Part shown: piece after piece, positions 4,679-59,598 of the stretch | How the letters are laid out: each line of letters opens with the position of its first letter | How positions within the stretch are numbered: position 1 is the stretch's first letter | NCBI RefSeq assembly: GCF_000739655.1 | Contig: NZ_BATR01000018.1 | Location: 1 to 64,000, forward strand | Direction of reading: 5' to 3' | Source of the DNA: Verrucomicrobium sp. BvORR106 | GTDB taxonomy: Bacteria; Verrucomicrobiota; Verrucomicrobiia; Verrucomicrobiales; Verrucomicrobiaceae | Length of the DNA: 64,000 nt | Notes under the pieces: model-generated | What the model was told of the DNA's origin: nothing | The model's input: the letters and a program-made list of their open reading frames with translations, nothing else | Databases searched by the model: none | Translations under genes and position numbers: made by a program

Positions 4679-4950
4679 CATCGAACCCGGAGGGTTCACC
4701 ATGAGTAGCCACGGGTCGACCGAGCGTAGCGAGGGCTACCCGTGGATAGACGTCCGCGTCTGCTACCACGGAGTGGTAGGCCCATCGCGTCGCCCACTCC
4801 TGACACCTTCCCGCAATTTTGCGCCCAATGTAAATTGGACATTCAGGCCTACCGCTCCGCGGTAGACTTTGCCCGTTCGATTTCCATGGGTTGCACTCGC
4901 TACGCTCGTTTCACCCATGGCTACTCATGGTGAACCCTCCGGGTTCGATG
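4679..4950. repeat. 272-bp element with 33-bp perfect terminal inverted repeats (copy A)
   Basis: This fills most of the 324-base convergent gap between the Kelch gene and the SDR gene. Bases 4679-4711 are the exact reverse complement of 4918-4950. Inside are smaller hairpins: CTACCA-cggag-TGGTAG near 4762-4778, CTACCGC-gga-GCGGTAG at 4849-4865, and a CCATGGGT/ACCCATGG pair around 4885-4919 enclosing a GAGCGTAGCGAG-like core. A second full copy lies at 47647-47914 and a half copy at 59351-59454. No transposase is encoded. It looks like a miniature mobile or REP/BIME-type element, or a structured transcript end. Confidence 0.85.
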
Positions 4951-28151: not shown

Positions 28152-28509
28152 CTGAATGAATCTGGGCCTTCAGCCCTCAAACATCTTTTTTGAATCCTGA
28201 ACCCAGGGCGTTGCCCCTGGGCTGGCATGAATCCGGGCCTTTGGCCCTCAGTTGCCCAGTTTCAAGCAATCCGATCAGCGAACGCACTTGCATGCAATTG
28301 CCACATTCCCCGACGAGGAAACGTCTGGTTAGCAAAGTTGCTGTCTCCGGAAAGGGCATCAACACGACCAAGCAAAGCCTGGATAGGCATTCTCGCATTG
28401 CAGCGCGAATCATGAGGGCCGAAGGCCCGGCCTCATACCAGCCTGGGGCAACGCCCCAGGTACTGGGAATTAAATAGAAATTGAGGGCTGAAAGCCCGGT
28501 GTCATTCAG
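28152..28509. repeat. Element with ~97-bp imperfect inverted arms in a convergent gap
   Basis: The 470-base gap between the response regulator and the lipoprotein gene contains two arms, 28152-28250 and 28413-28509, that are imperfect reverse complements along their whole length. Each arm contains small hairpins, such as CCTGGGGC-aac-GCCCCAGG at 28442-28460 and GGGCC-gaa-GGCCC at about 28417-28428. The 160-base centre has no recognised coding content. The unit looks like a dispersed palindromic element (REP/MITE-like) of a family different from that at 4679. The remaining bases of the gap show nothing recognisable. Confidence 0.75.
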
Positions 28510-47366: not shown

Positions 47367-47498
47367 AGAGAGACAAAAGACTGGAAGACAGAAGACCAAA
47401 GAATTGAGGGGGACAGGTTGGGGCGTGGGTTGCTGAAGTGGGAGCATGTCTTGCACACGGAACTACATGATCGCCCTTTCACTGCCCCCTCCGAAGCT

Positions 47499-47606
47499 CG
47501 TCCCGGAGGGACGGCGGAAAGTAGCCGGTGGTGAAGGCCTGTCATCAGGCCGGGAACCACCGGAACATGCACCAACAACACCTCCCGTCCCGGAGGGATG
47601 GCGGAT
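47499..47606. repeat. ~108-bp triple-hairpin repeat, copy E1
   Basis: Order of parts: hairpin CGTCCC-gga-GGGACG, a nested hairpin CCGGTGGT / ACCACCGG enclosing GGCCTG-tcat-CAGGCC, and a second CGTCCC/GGGATG hairpin. Two more copies lie at 56956-57065 and 57551-57655. It is in the convergent gap after the aminotransferase gene (47367-47965), which otherwise holds the inverted-repeat element at 47647 and nothing recognisable as a gene. Confidence 0.8.
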
Positions 47607-47646
47607 CGCTGCGCTGCACCCATTTCCACCCCATTTCATTGTCTCA

Positions 47647-47914
47647 TGAACCCGGAGGGTTCGCCGTGAATAGCCACGGGTCGGCCGAGCGGAGCGAGGA
47701 CTACCCGGGGGAAACGATCTGCGGCAATCTACCGCGGAGCGGTAGGCCCATCGCACACCCCAACCCCCAACGCCCTTCCCGCGCCACACGTCCTCATTAC
47801 ATTGGACACTTTGGCCTACCGCTCCGCGGTAGAATGCAACGATCACGATACCATGGGTTGCACTCGCTACGCTCGTTTCACCCATGGCTATTCATGGCGA
47901 ACCCTCCGGGTTCA
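47647..47914. repeat. 268-bp element with 30-bp terminal inverted repeats (copy B)
   Basis: Bases 47647-47676 pair with 47885-47914 with a single G-T mismatch. It is homologous over its whole length to the element at 4679-4950, including the inner CTACCGC-gga-GCGGTAG hairpins and the CACTCGCTACGCTCG core. Two positions in the arms differ from copy A and both differ on both arms, so pairing is kept (see findings). No open reading frame inside. Confidence 0.85.
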
Positions 47915-56701: not shown

Positions 56702-56720
56702 TGACGCACCCTTGCAGTAC

Positions 56721-56768
56721 CAAATCACACCTGAAACCGACTTCATCCGGGGCTTGGGCGTCGATTGA
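56721..56768 (+). pseudogene. C-terminal fragment of an acyl-carrier-like gene
   Basis: The 16 codons read QITPETDFIRGLGVD and stop, matching the end of the complete gene at 57104-57364 (QVTPETDFIRDLGVD), at the same frame and with the same TGA. The following 290 bases also match the downstream region of that gene. The 5' part is missing, with the break 20 bases after the DUF1501 stop. It is therefore a truncated tandem copy, not a gene. Confidence 0.85.
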
Positions 56769-57103
56769 CGAGCGCCACTCAAACCACTGCTTCGCTTCAC
56801 TGCTACCTCATCTCCGCATCGCATCGCGGCCAGAAAACGGTGTCGAGCCACCGTACTCCAAGACGCTGACGCGACTGGAGACATCCCTCGAGACGGTGTA
56901 GATCGGCAACAGGCAACGTGCCTGCCATCAGGCAGCTCTGCTAACAGTTCCCGCTCGTCCCGGAGGGACGATGGATTGTAGCCGGTGGTGAAGGCCTGCC
57001 ATCAGACCGGGAACCACCGGAACAGGCAGCGACAAATGCTCCCCGTCCCGGAGGGACGGCGGATCGGCCTTGACTGCCGGACGCCGTTGCACCACTCCAT
57101 ACC
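56769..57103. repeat. Tandem-duplicated downstream region with hairpin repeat E2
   Basis: 56721-57066 is a direct repeat of 57317-57660, offset by 596 bases and roughly 85-90% identical by eye. It contains the conserved 43-base segment at 56826-56868, with the hairpin ACGGTG-tcgagc-CACCGT, and the triple-hairpin repeat E2 at 56956-57065. No gene is seen between 56769 and the start of the carrier gene at 57104. Confidence 0.75.
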
Positions 57104-57364
57104 ATGGGCATGGAATCCGTTGAGCTCGTCATGGCGGTGGAGGAAGCGTTCGGCATCGCCATTTCTGATCAGGACGCCTCTACCGCGAAGACAGCGGGAG
57201 ATCTCCGTGATCTCGTACTCCGGGCCCTGCGGGATCAAGGCATCCAGACGGATGCGGACCAAGTCTGGCTGAAACTAAAGGACATCATTGTGGATCAACT
57301 TGGCGTCTCCCCGCACCAAGTCACACCTGAAACCGACTTCATCCGGGACTTGGGCGTCGATTGA
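57104..57364 (+). CDS. Acyl-carrier-like protein with permuted order, serine missing
   Basis: 86 residues. The protein begins MGMESVELVMAVEEAFGIAISDQDAS, which corresponds to helix II and the following loop of ACP (E. coli: DSLDTVELVMALEEEF). It ends LKDIIVDQLGVSPHQVTPETDFIRDLGVD, which corresponds to ACP helix I and the run-up to DSL. The two halves of the fold are thus in reverse order, joined by a linker near residues 40-55. Alignment puts Gly2 where the phosphopantetheine serine should be, so this copy may not carry a prosthetic group. There are no ketosynthase or ligase genes nearby. Start chosen at the ATG that immediately precedes the fold; no alternative upstream ACP half exists. Confidence 0.8.
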   Translation: MGMESVELVMAVEEAFGIAISDQDASTAKTAGDLRDLVLRALRDQGIQTDADQVWLKLKDIIVDQLGVSPHQVTPETDFIRDLGVD

Positions 57365-57694
57365 CGACCGCCACACAAGCCACCGCTTCGCTTCACTGCT
57401 ACCTCATCACCGCATCGCATCACGGCCAGAAAACGGTGTCGAGCCACCGTACTCCAAGACGCTGACGCGACGGAGATATTCCTTGAGCCAGTGTAGATCG
57501 GCAACAGGCAACGTGCATTCCACAAGGCAGCCCCGTTGACATCCCCCGCTCGTCCCGGAGGGACGCTGGACCGTAGCCGGTGGTGAAGGCCTGTCATCAG
57601 GCCGAGAACCACCGGAACAGGGTGACAAATGCTCCCGTCCCGGAGGGACGGCGGATCGAGGCCGAATCGCTCGACTTACCCAAAGCAGTATTTC
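57365..57694. repeat. Convergent gap with carrier-gene tail repeat and hairpin repeat E3
   Basis: The 330-base gap holds the 3' tail repeat of the carrier gene (matching segment 57422-57464) and the triple-hairpin element E3 (57551-57655: CGTCCC-gga-GGGACG, the nested CCGGTGGT/ACCACCGG hairpin, and a second CGTCCC-gga-GGGACG). Nothing coding is recognisable. Confidence 0.75.
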
Positions 57695-58879: not shown

Positions 58880-59140
58880 ATGAGCTTGGATTCTGTTGAG
58901 CTTGTCCTTGAGGTGGAAAAGGAGTTCGACATCTTCGTCTCCGATGAGGATGCATCAAAGATCTTCACCGTTGGCAATTTTCGTGATCTCATCGTCCGGT
59001 CTTTGCAGGAGAAAGGAATGAATCCAAACGAGGGTGAGGTGATGCAGAAGCTAAGAGCCATCGTCGTGGAGCAAATCGGCGTCTCCCCGGACGAGGTCAC
59101 TCCAGAGGCCGACTTCGTCCGAGACTTGGGGTTGGATTGA
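58880..59140 (+). CDS. Acyl-carrier-like protein with permuted order, serine kept
   Basis: 86 residues, the same length as the gene at 57104. The ATG at 58880 is chosen because it starts the fold; an in-frame ATG at 58802 adds 26 residues without ACP character. It begins [26 protein letters not shown] (helix II onwards) and ends [29 protein letters not shown] (helix I and approach). Joining the end to the start recreates [13 protein letters not shown], the exact ACP consensus around the phosphopantetheine serine. Ser2 is the expected attachment site; Met removal would leave it N-terminal. Its partners are unknown. Confidence 0.85.
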
Positions 59141-59598
59141 CGCCATGCACGCGAACGAGAGAACCCGCTTCGCTTCACTGTTACATCGCAACCTCATCTC
59201 ATCGCGGCCAGAAAACGGTGTCGAGCCACCGTACTCCAAGACGCTGGCGCGCCGTTGCCGACTCCTCGCGCCGCCCAACTCATTCATACTTGTCTCCATC
59301 CGTACTATGATGTGCGTCGCGTGAAGAGCATCGGGAATCGGTGGCCGCAATGGGCTTACCGCTGCGCGGTAGAAACTGCGACAAGTCATCCATGGGTTGC
59401 ACTCGCTACGCTCGTTTCACCCATGGCTACTCATGGTGAACCCTCCGGGTTCGAGGACAATCCGTGGAGGGGCCTTACTCGCAGCACTTGCAACACATCC
59501 AAAGGGTCGACGCGCACCTTGATCGAGTCCACCCTGAGCATGCCGCCCTCCGGACACTCAGGCATGGAACCGGGCATCGCAGACAGCCATTCCCCTCC
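59141..59598. repeat. Convergent gap with carrier tail repeat and a half copy of the inverted-repeat element
   Basis: 59204-59246 matches the downstream segment of the 57104 gene almost base for base. 59351-59454 is the right half only of the element seen at 4679 and 47647 (GGCTTACCGCTGCGCGGTAG through the right terminal repeat ending GGGTTCGA); the left half is missing. The remaining 144 bases (59455-59598) show nothing recognisable. Confidence 0.75.

Follow-up and report, generated by a model that had tools for sequence, protein, structure and literature searches.

The two long inverted repeats at positions 4679–4950 (copy A) and 47647–47914 (copy B) of the window, i.e., of the whole analysed stretch of 64,000 nucleotides (contig C192 of the 8.69-Mb genome G000), are, in our opinion, non-autonomous elements of the REPIN/MITE type. 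With a probability of about 0.85, their arms are composite REP units, and both elements are derived from a single-stranded DNA transposon carrying a tnpA gene of subclass 1.2, the parent being gutted in this genome.

The first-pass annotation had described an element with perfect 33-bp arms in copy A, and the coordinates of both copies as well as the pairing of the arms (4679–4711 with 4918–4950) were confirmed. It had also reported two arm differences between the copies, both compensated. The two matched changes are correct: A 4698 and T 4931 of copy A are replaced by G 47663 and C 47898 in copy B, and G 4705 and C 4924 by A 47670 and T 47891. A third difference had been missed and is uncompensated, as A 4701, paired with T, corresponds to G 47666 opposite an unchanged T 47895, giving a G·T wobble. 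The paired difference noticed in the inner hairpin (CTACCA/TGGTAG against CTACCG/CGGTAG) was found at 4763–4779 of copy A (CTACCAC-GGA-GTGGTAG) and at 47729–47745 of copy B (CTACCGC-GGA-GCGGTAG). The foldedness of both copies is far above chance, with single-strand folding z-scores of −15.6 (A) and −13.1 (B) relative to dinucleotide shuffles, none of 200 shuffles being as good.

The anatomy of the family was established by alignment of 67 units. A half-unit of about 100 nt includes the hairpin H1 (GAACCC-GGA-GGGTTC), the segment (A/G)CCATGN, the tetranucleotide RTAG, the hairpin H2, about 20 variable nucleotides and the hairpin H3 (CTACCGC-GGA-GCGGTAG). The consensus of H2 is CCAYGGGT ... GAGCGNAGCGA ... 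ACCYRTGG with the apical sequence GCGNAGC. The full element, about 266 bp in length, is composed of a unit, a spacer of about 65 nt and an inverted unit. In copy A, both halves of which match the covariance model R1 (111.8 and 111.6 bits), the left unit on the plus strand contains H1 at 4683–4697, GTAG at 4705–4708, H2 with its covarying stem and apical GCG(N)AGC at 4709–4745, and the above inner hairpin as H3. The spacer follows at 4780–4848, its left end (GCCCATCGCGTCGCCCACTCCTGAC) being similar to the tnpA 5' flank in the congener G003, and the right unit on the minus strand comprises H3 (4849–4865), H2 (4884–4920) and H1 (4932–4946). Copy B gives R1 matches at 47648–47750 (+) and 47811–47913 (−), with H1 at 47648–47662, ATAG at 47670–47673, H2 at 47674–47710 and the plus-strand H3 already mentioned in the left unit, and H3 (47816–47832), H2 (47851–47887) and H1 (47899–47913) on the minus strand in the right one. 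One more R1 match, a single half-unit of the same family, lies at 59351–59452 on the minus strand.

RTAG stands immediately 5' of H2 in 65 of the 67 units, and its TAG is almost invariant (T and G in all units, A in 66). Apical loops fitting the GNA pattern were found in all 67 units for H1 and H3 and in 52 of 67 for H2, where all four bases occur at N; the loop triplet of H1 is GGA or GAA, and that of H3 is GGA in 65 units. Unusual stability is known for DNA mini-hairpins that combine a GNA loop with a GC stem (PMC4686876). The apical GCGNAGC of H2 corresponds to this stable motif, which suggests that the relevant form of the units is single-stranded DNA.

A search of the genome with copy A yielded 94 matching pieces, many of them representing both strands of one palindromic copy. 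In total, 27 distinct full elements were read in G000, most of 264–267 bp from H1 to H1, together with many half-units. At the first of the two matched positions, 19 of these 27 are of a mixed G/A type, and copies A and B happen to be among the seven same-type, unmixed copies. The model R1, with up to 150 candidates scored per genome, found at least 135 half-units in G000, at least 111 and 109 in the congeners G001 and G003, and at least 37 and 13 in G024 and G004, respectively. The family was detected in only five of 57 genomes of the order (DNA search, E ≤ 1e-5) and probably belongs to the Verrucomicrobiaceae. As in REPINs and BIMEs, pairs of inverted RTAG-tagged units are present here in many dispersed intergenic copies.

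The suggestion of the first-pass annotation to test covariation over many copies was fruitful for the local stems H2 and H3, where an excess of paired changes was found, and gave no such excess between the arms. In the 67 units, 97.5% of the cells of local stems are paired, and nine pairs with 70 cells have changed on both sides, against 92.7%, 3.6 pairs and 17.8 cells after shuffling; the observed values were reached in none of 500 shuffles. The pairing score collapses when the partners are slid, and RNAalifold recovers identical local helices unprompted. In a tree-aware test, the top pairs were 30–62 and 40–54 of H2, and each of the six column pairs reaching E < 0.05 was inside H2; these E-values are rough, coming from a home-made R-scape-like procedure with 100 simulations and one tree. 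H1 is nearly invariant (five of its six pairs show no change in 67 units) and gives no evidence of covariation because it hardly varies. Compensatory change is strong within H2 and H3.

A lead to the origin of the family was provided by the search for a RAYT/IS200-type transposase, also proposed in the first-pass annotation and quite justified: an intact HuH/Y1 tnpA gene exists in G003, and its remnant in G000. The intact gene (L103, G003:C1, 1492–1938) encodes 148 amino acids and is flanked by GAACCC units starting at 1371 (+) and 2069 (−), which form inverted arms of 134 bp with 79% identity. The gutted parent in G000 (L217, C158:3968–4383) shares 91% and 94% identity with L103 in its two arms and keeps only tnpA codons 1–24 and a short remainder (87.5% identity, tblastn 1e-10). 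No other close homologue of this tnpA was found in G000, where the best match has 42% identity, and none was found in G001. The spacers of the short elements resemble the parental leader at their beginning and the parental trailer at their end, and GCCCATCGC..CCCCTGA is common to the short elements, L217 and L103. Hence, gene-less derivatives with ends common to an autonomous element, as in MITEs, are seen here, and the series from the intact parent (G003) through the gutted parent (G000) to gene-less elements is visible. H3 of the L103 parent is of the GAACCGC type, and that of most short elements in G000 is CTACCGC; judging from these sequences, the short elements may have come directly from a parent closely related to L103. 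At least eight single-domain Y1 genes of G000 were considered as a cognate transposase beside the family in its own genome and rejected: they are flanked by other inverted-repeat families of the same plan, no GAACCC units were found around the intact Y1 genes of this genome, and no intact cognate gene is present. Other tnpA genes are likewise flanked by H1-(T)AG-H2 families of their own.

The protein of L103 contains the HuH motif DHVH and the motif YIKSQEEHH fitting Y---Q--HH, not the YIxxNP-type motif of class 2 TnpA-REP/RAYT proteins. It scores 67 bits with the NCBIfam model IS200/IS605 (NF033573, cut-off 55) and is above the cut-off of PF01797, but falls below that of REP_Tyr_transpos of NCBIfam (25.7 bits vs. 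80). The nearest solved structures are those of IS200/IS605-type transposases, including ISHp608 and the ISDra2 entries 2xm3 and 2xqc. By motif, the protein is assigned to subclass 1.2 of TnpA(Y1). Proteins of this subclass, having Y---Q--HH, were described in 2018 as near to the IS200 transposases, generally lacking IS200-type terminal structures and occurring mostly in Cyanobacteria and Bacteroidetes (PMC6006769).

The lack of flanking structures reported for this subclass does not hold at most of the loci studied here. The Y---Q--HH signature was found at 47 of 53 tnpA loci of the order, and 44 of the 53 have inverted-repeat flanks above the 95th percentile of mismatched pairs, a typical arm consisting of a short palindrome, (T)AG and a CC..GG hairpin. 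Among 56 loci from many phyla, inverted arms were present at 34, and 26 of these have TAGC in the arm. The loci L042 and L043 (G000:C151), L039 and L040 encode tandem or long (about 300–460 aa) Y1 proteins of the DLNPVRAG type, which are unlike the subclass 1.2 genes. It is tempting to extend these data to a generalization, for which we would give slightly less than even chances: subclass 1.2 proteins may be the transposases of widespread single-stranded DNA elements whose inverted arms carry several hairpins (H1 - RTAG - H2 - H3, GNA-capped), distributed from Verrucomicrobiota to Planctomycetes and Bacteroidota, with several families and their gene-less derivatives per genome, with H1 as a junction or target, and with the 7–8 bp tandem arrays described below perhaps arising by the same chemistry.

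One empty site, where a single H1 remains, speaks for movement of the family. At the locus L016, G000 contains a full element; in G003 and G001, the same flanks enclose nothing but CAT-GAACCCGGAGGGTTC-GGGATG. The H1 kept in the empty site is an element end whose loop triplet differs in the filled site, and not a plain duplication. Entry at an existing H1 and loss between two H1 ends are both possible, since T-GAACCCnnnGGGTTC-G stands on one and the same strand at each end of mixed-type copies, forming a near direct repeat of 17 bp at the hairpin base. Copy A recurs at the orthologous locus of G001 and of G003, and copy B at that of G003; therefore, both are old and uninformative on present mobility. 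At L014, the copy in G003 is degenerate. Solo H1 sites were rejected as evidence of target choice, since most of them proved to be intact units missed by the first BLAST search. True solo H1 sites are few, namely L205, L208, L212 and L214, L173 and L170 in G001, and L174 in G003. At L205, where G000 has a solo H1, other tandem inverted repeats are situated in G001 and G003 (L301, L302), which suggests shared intergenic hot spots.

A side observation concerns the sequences preceding the arm ends. A GCGCGTTATCTCAT-like segment stands before 23 of 40 G-type ends, and perfect 7–8 bp tandem arrays, for instance of GTCGGTGC or CTTGGTT, before 13 of 40; the corresponding values for A-type ends are 0/44 and 1/44 (Fisher p 2e-4 for arrays). 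Examples upstream of G-type ends are L019:330-464, L010, L011, L015, L017, L020, L021 and L217, and the combination of array, segment and H1 without an element was found at L212, L173 and L174. Such arrays and segments could be a target, a footprint or a product of the transposase.

Several other explanations of the paired changes and of the persistence of these repeats should be weighed. The first-pass annotation had considered that a folded form, RNA or cruciform DNA, matters, or that the arms are copied from each other. The part concerning a folded form agrees with the single-strand folding and with the covariation of the local H2 and H3; the long arm-arm stem is unsupported. A functional cruciform or long hairpin, maintained by selection for compensatory changes or by one arm being copied from the other within an element, would account for the two matched differences between A and B, and the long hairpin is indeed the thermodynamic optimum of the whole strand (mean −88.6 kcal/mol vs. 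−51.9 with pairs limited to 60 nt). However, in columns 16–65, the arms of one copy match each other at 39.4 of 50 positions and shuffled partners at 39.9 (P = 0.89), no within-copy excess was found in any region (linker, H2 lower stem, H2 inner stem, apical loop, H3; P 0.58 to 1.0), and the two arms differ at 7 to 15 of 50 columns in every one of the 23 copies compared. Moreover, one arm has changed alone at the copy A locus: in G003, the H2 stem of the left arm (C-G to T-A), its inner stem and its H3 (CTACCAC..GTGGTAG in copy A, GAACCGC..GCGGTTC in G003) are altered and all still paired, and the right arm is almost unchanged, although these multiple changes could alternatively reflect replacement of the arm by another unit. 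Comparing L008 with L086, the tip of H2 is swapped in one copy for a different, longer hairpin. Partner shuffling speaks against both arm-arm compensation and arm-arm copying, which were rejected, the folding optimum was set aside as the functional form, and we regard this explanation as very improbable. The preference for local folds rests on evolutionary evidence because energy alone favours the long hairpin, and the thing conserved is three small hairpins per arm rather than arm-arm pairing. For REPINs, the long hairpin was proposed to be a poor substrate and a clover form the recognised one (PMC3116915).

Local stems would covary in the same manner if the hairpins were maintained by a function at the RNA level, for instance as intergenic bidirectional terminators or stabilisers of mRNA. 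None of the 27 full copies overlaps a predicted gene, and, according to a simple codon-bias gene finder, the neighbours of 23 scorable copies are convergent in 13 cases, codirectional in 10 and never divergent, against 8, 9 and 9 among 26 spaced gene pairs of the window; in addition, congeners that lack an intact tnpA have retained copies at orthologous loci. This context, comparable to that reported for REPs (PMC3733652), may leave room for a secondary RNA role. Nevertheless, avoidance of promoters is equally expected from neutral or tolerated insertion, intact pairs of units around tnpA genes in many families are unexplained by an RNA function alone, and a known RNA family was ruled out by the lack of any Rfam match to the element at the gathering threshold. 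An RNA function may be a secondary role and is improbable as the origin of the family. The other possibility is that H1 hairpins are ordinary points of recombination or slippage in an immobile family, the apparent insertion polymorphism being a deletion between H1 ends. The 17-bp near direct repeat of mixed-type copies, the loss of the intact cognate tnpA from G000 and the lack of a close homologue found in G001 are in favour of it, but it requires that the L016 site suffered the same loss twice independently, in G001 and in G003. We consider it unlikely, though worth keeping in mind. Even so, the existence of the family and of its parent with tnpA would call for transposition in the past, and this possibility rather qualifies than replaces the origin from a single-stranded DNA transposon.

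The latter origin may be outlined as follows. All copies would descend from an L103-type parent. As the arms and the leader and trailer ends of the parent recur in the short elements, and the gene does not, these elements look like its internal-deletion derivatives mobilised in trans, and with the parent gutted in G000, its approximately 135 half-units are therefore orphans. Each arm probably folds as its own array of local hairpins, and TnpA would bind RTAG together with the GNA-capped H2 where single strands are exposed, e.g., on the lagging-strand template. Cleavage may occur at or beside H1, which would be either a junction left behind or a target; GTTATCTCAT-H1 would be a candidate target sequence for insertion.

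The window also contains other repeats. A second family of the same plan (GTCCC-GGA-GGGAC, GTAG, CCGGTGG hairpin) was found at 47496–47640, 56953–57066 and 57548–57658; it has about 40 matches in the genome and its own tnpA locus (L037, C46:26727-27395). Inverted CTGAATGAATCTGGGCCTTCAGCCCTCAA repeats at 28152–28509 are similar to the arms of the tnpA locus L033 and possibly belong to a third family. Direct repeats of 150–166 nt (families D1, D3 and D4), two of them about 596 nt apart, are situated at 56719–57471 and 59097–59253.

The principle of REP-like doublets moved by a HuH/Y1 protein is already known. Like REPINs and BIMEs with their RAYT/TnpA-REP proteins (PMC3116915; PMC6006769; PMC8266576), the elements studied are inverted pairs of tagged hairpins, intergenic, dispersed and non-autonomous; a single HuH/Y1 protein belongs to each family, RTAG immediately precedes the hairpin on its 5' side, changes are compensatory, and gene loss leaves orphan repeats. 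At the same time, their arms, about 100 nt in length, comprise three hairpins each, where REPINs have one of 20–40 nt, the loops are mostly of the GNA type, the cognate protein is an IS200-like one of subclass 1.2 and not TnpA-REP, and tnpA is placed between the two arms, inside the element. With IS200/IS605 elements (IS608, ISDra2), the family shares one small HuH/Y1 TnpA, hairpins at both ends and an empty site where only a short sequence is kept; however, known IS200 ends are single, subterminal and non-inverted hairpins, whereas long inverted multi-hairpin arms and many gene-less copies are observed here. TIRtrons/TIRYT (Di Nocera 2013, PMC3733652) also have a tyrosine transposase gene between long inverted repeats, some of them self-complementary, and dispersed TIR dimers, but mostly belong to subclass 2.1 with a C-terminal HTH and GGGGWSAS repeats, in contrast to subclass 1.2 with RTAG-H2. 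Finally, class 3 of TnpA(Y1) from Planctomycetes and Acidobacteria (Quentin 2018, PMC6006769) is similar in its atypical flanking structures and high-copy repeats and differs in the Y----Q motif and CnGA foot, in place of Y---Q--HH and RTAG. As far as the literature searched shows, the link to subclass 1.2, the three-hairpin arms and the gene inside the element are new.

Summarizing these data, the family is a worked example of how covariation suggested by two copies was moved by a larger set from a long stem to local hairpins. One family in three stages represents a natural series from a single-stranded DNA transposon to orphan REP-like repeats. Contrary to the description of 2018, subclass 1.2 genes are usually found here between inverted RTAG-tagged multi-hairpin arms, and such a gene together with its arms is a direct substrate for in vitro testing. 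If the proposed generalization is true, it would provide a DNA partner for the Y1 proteins of subclass 1.2, which previously had no known one.
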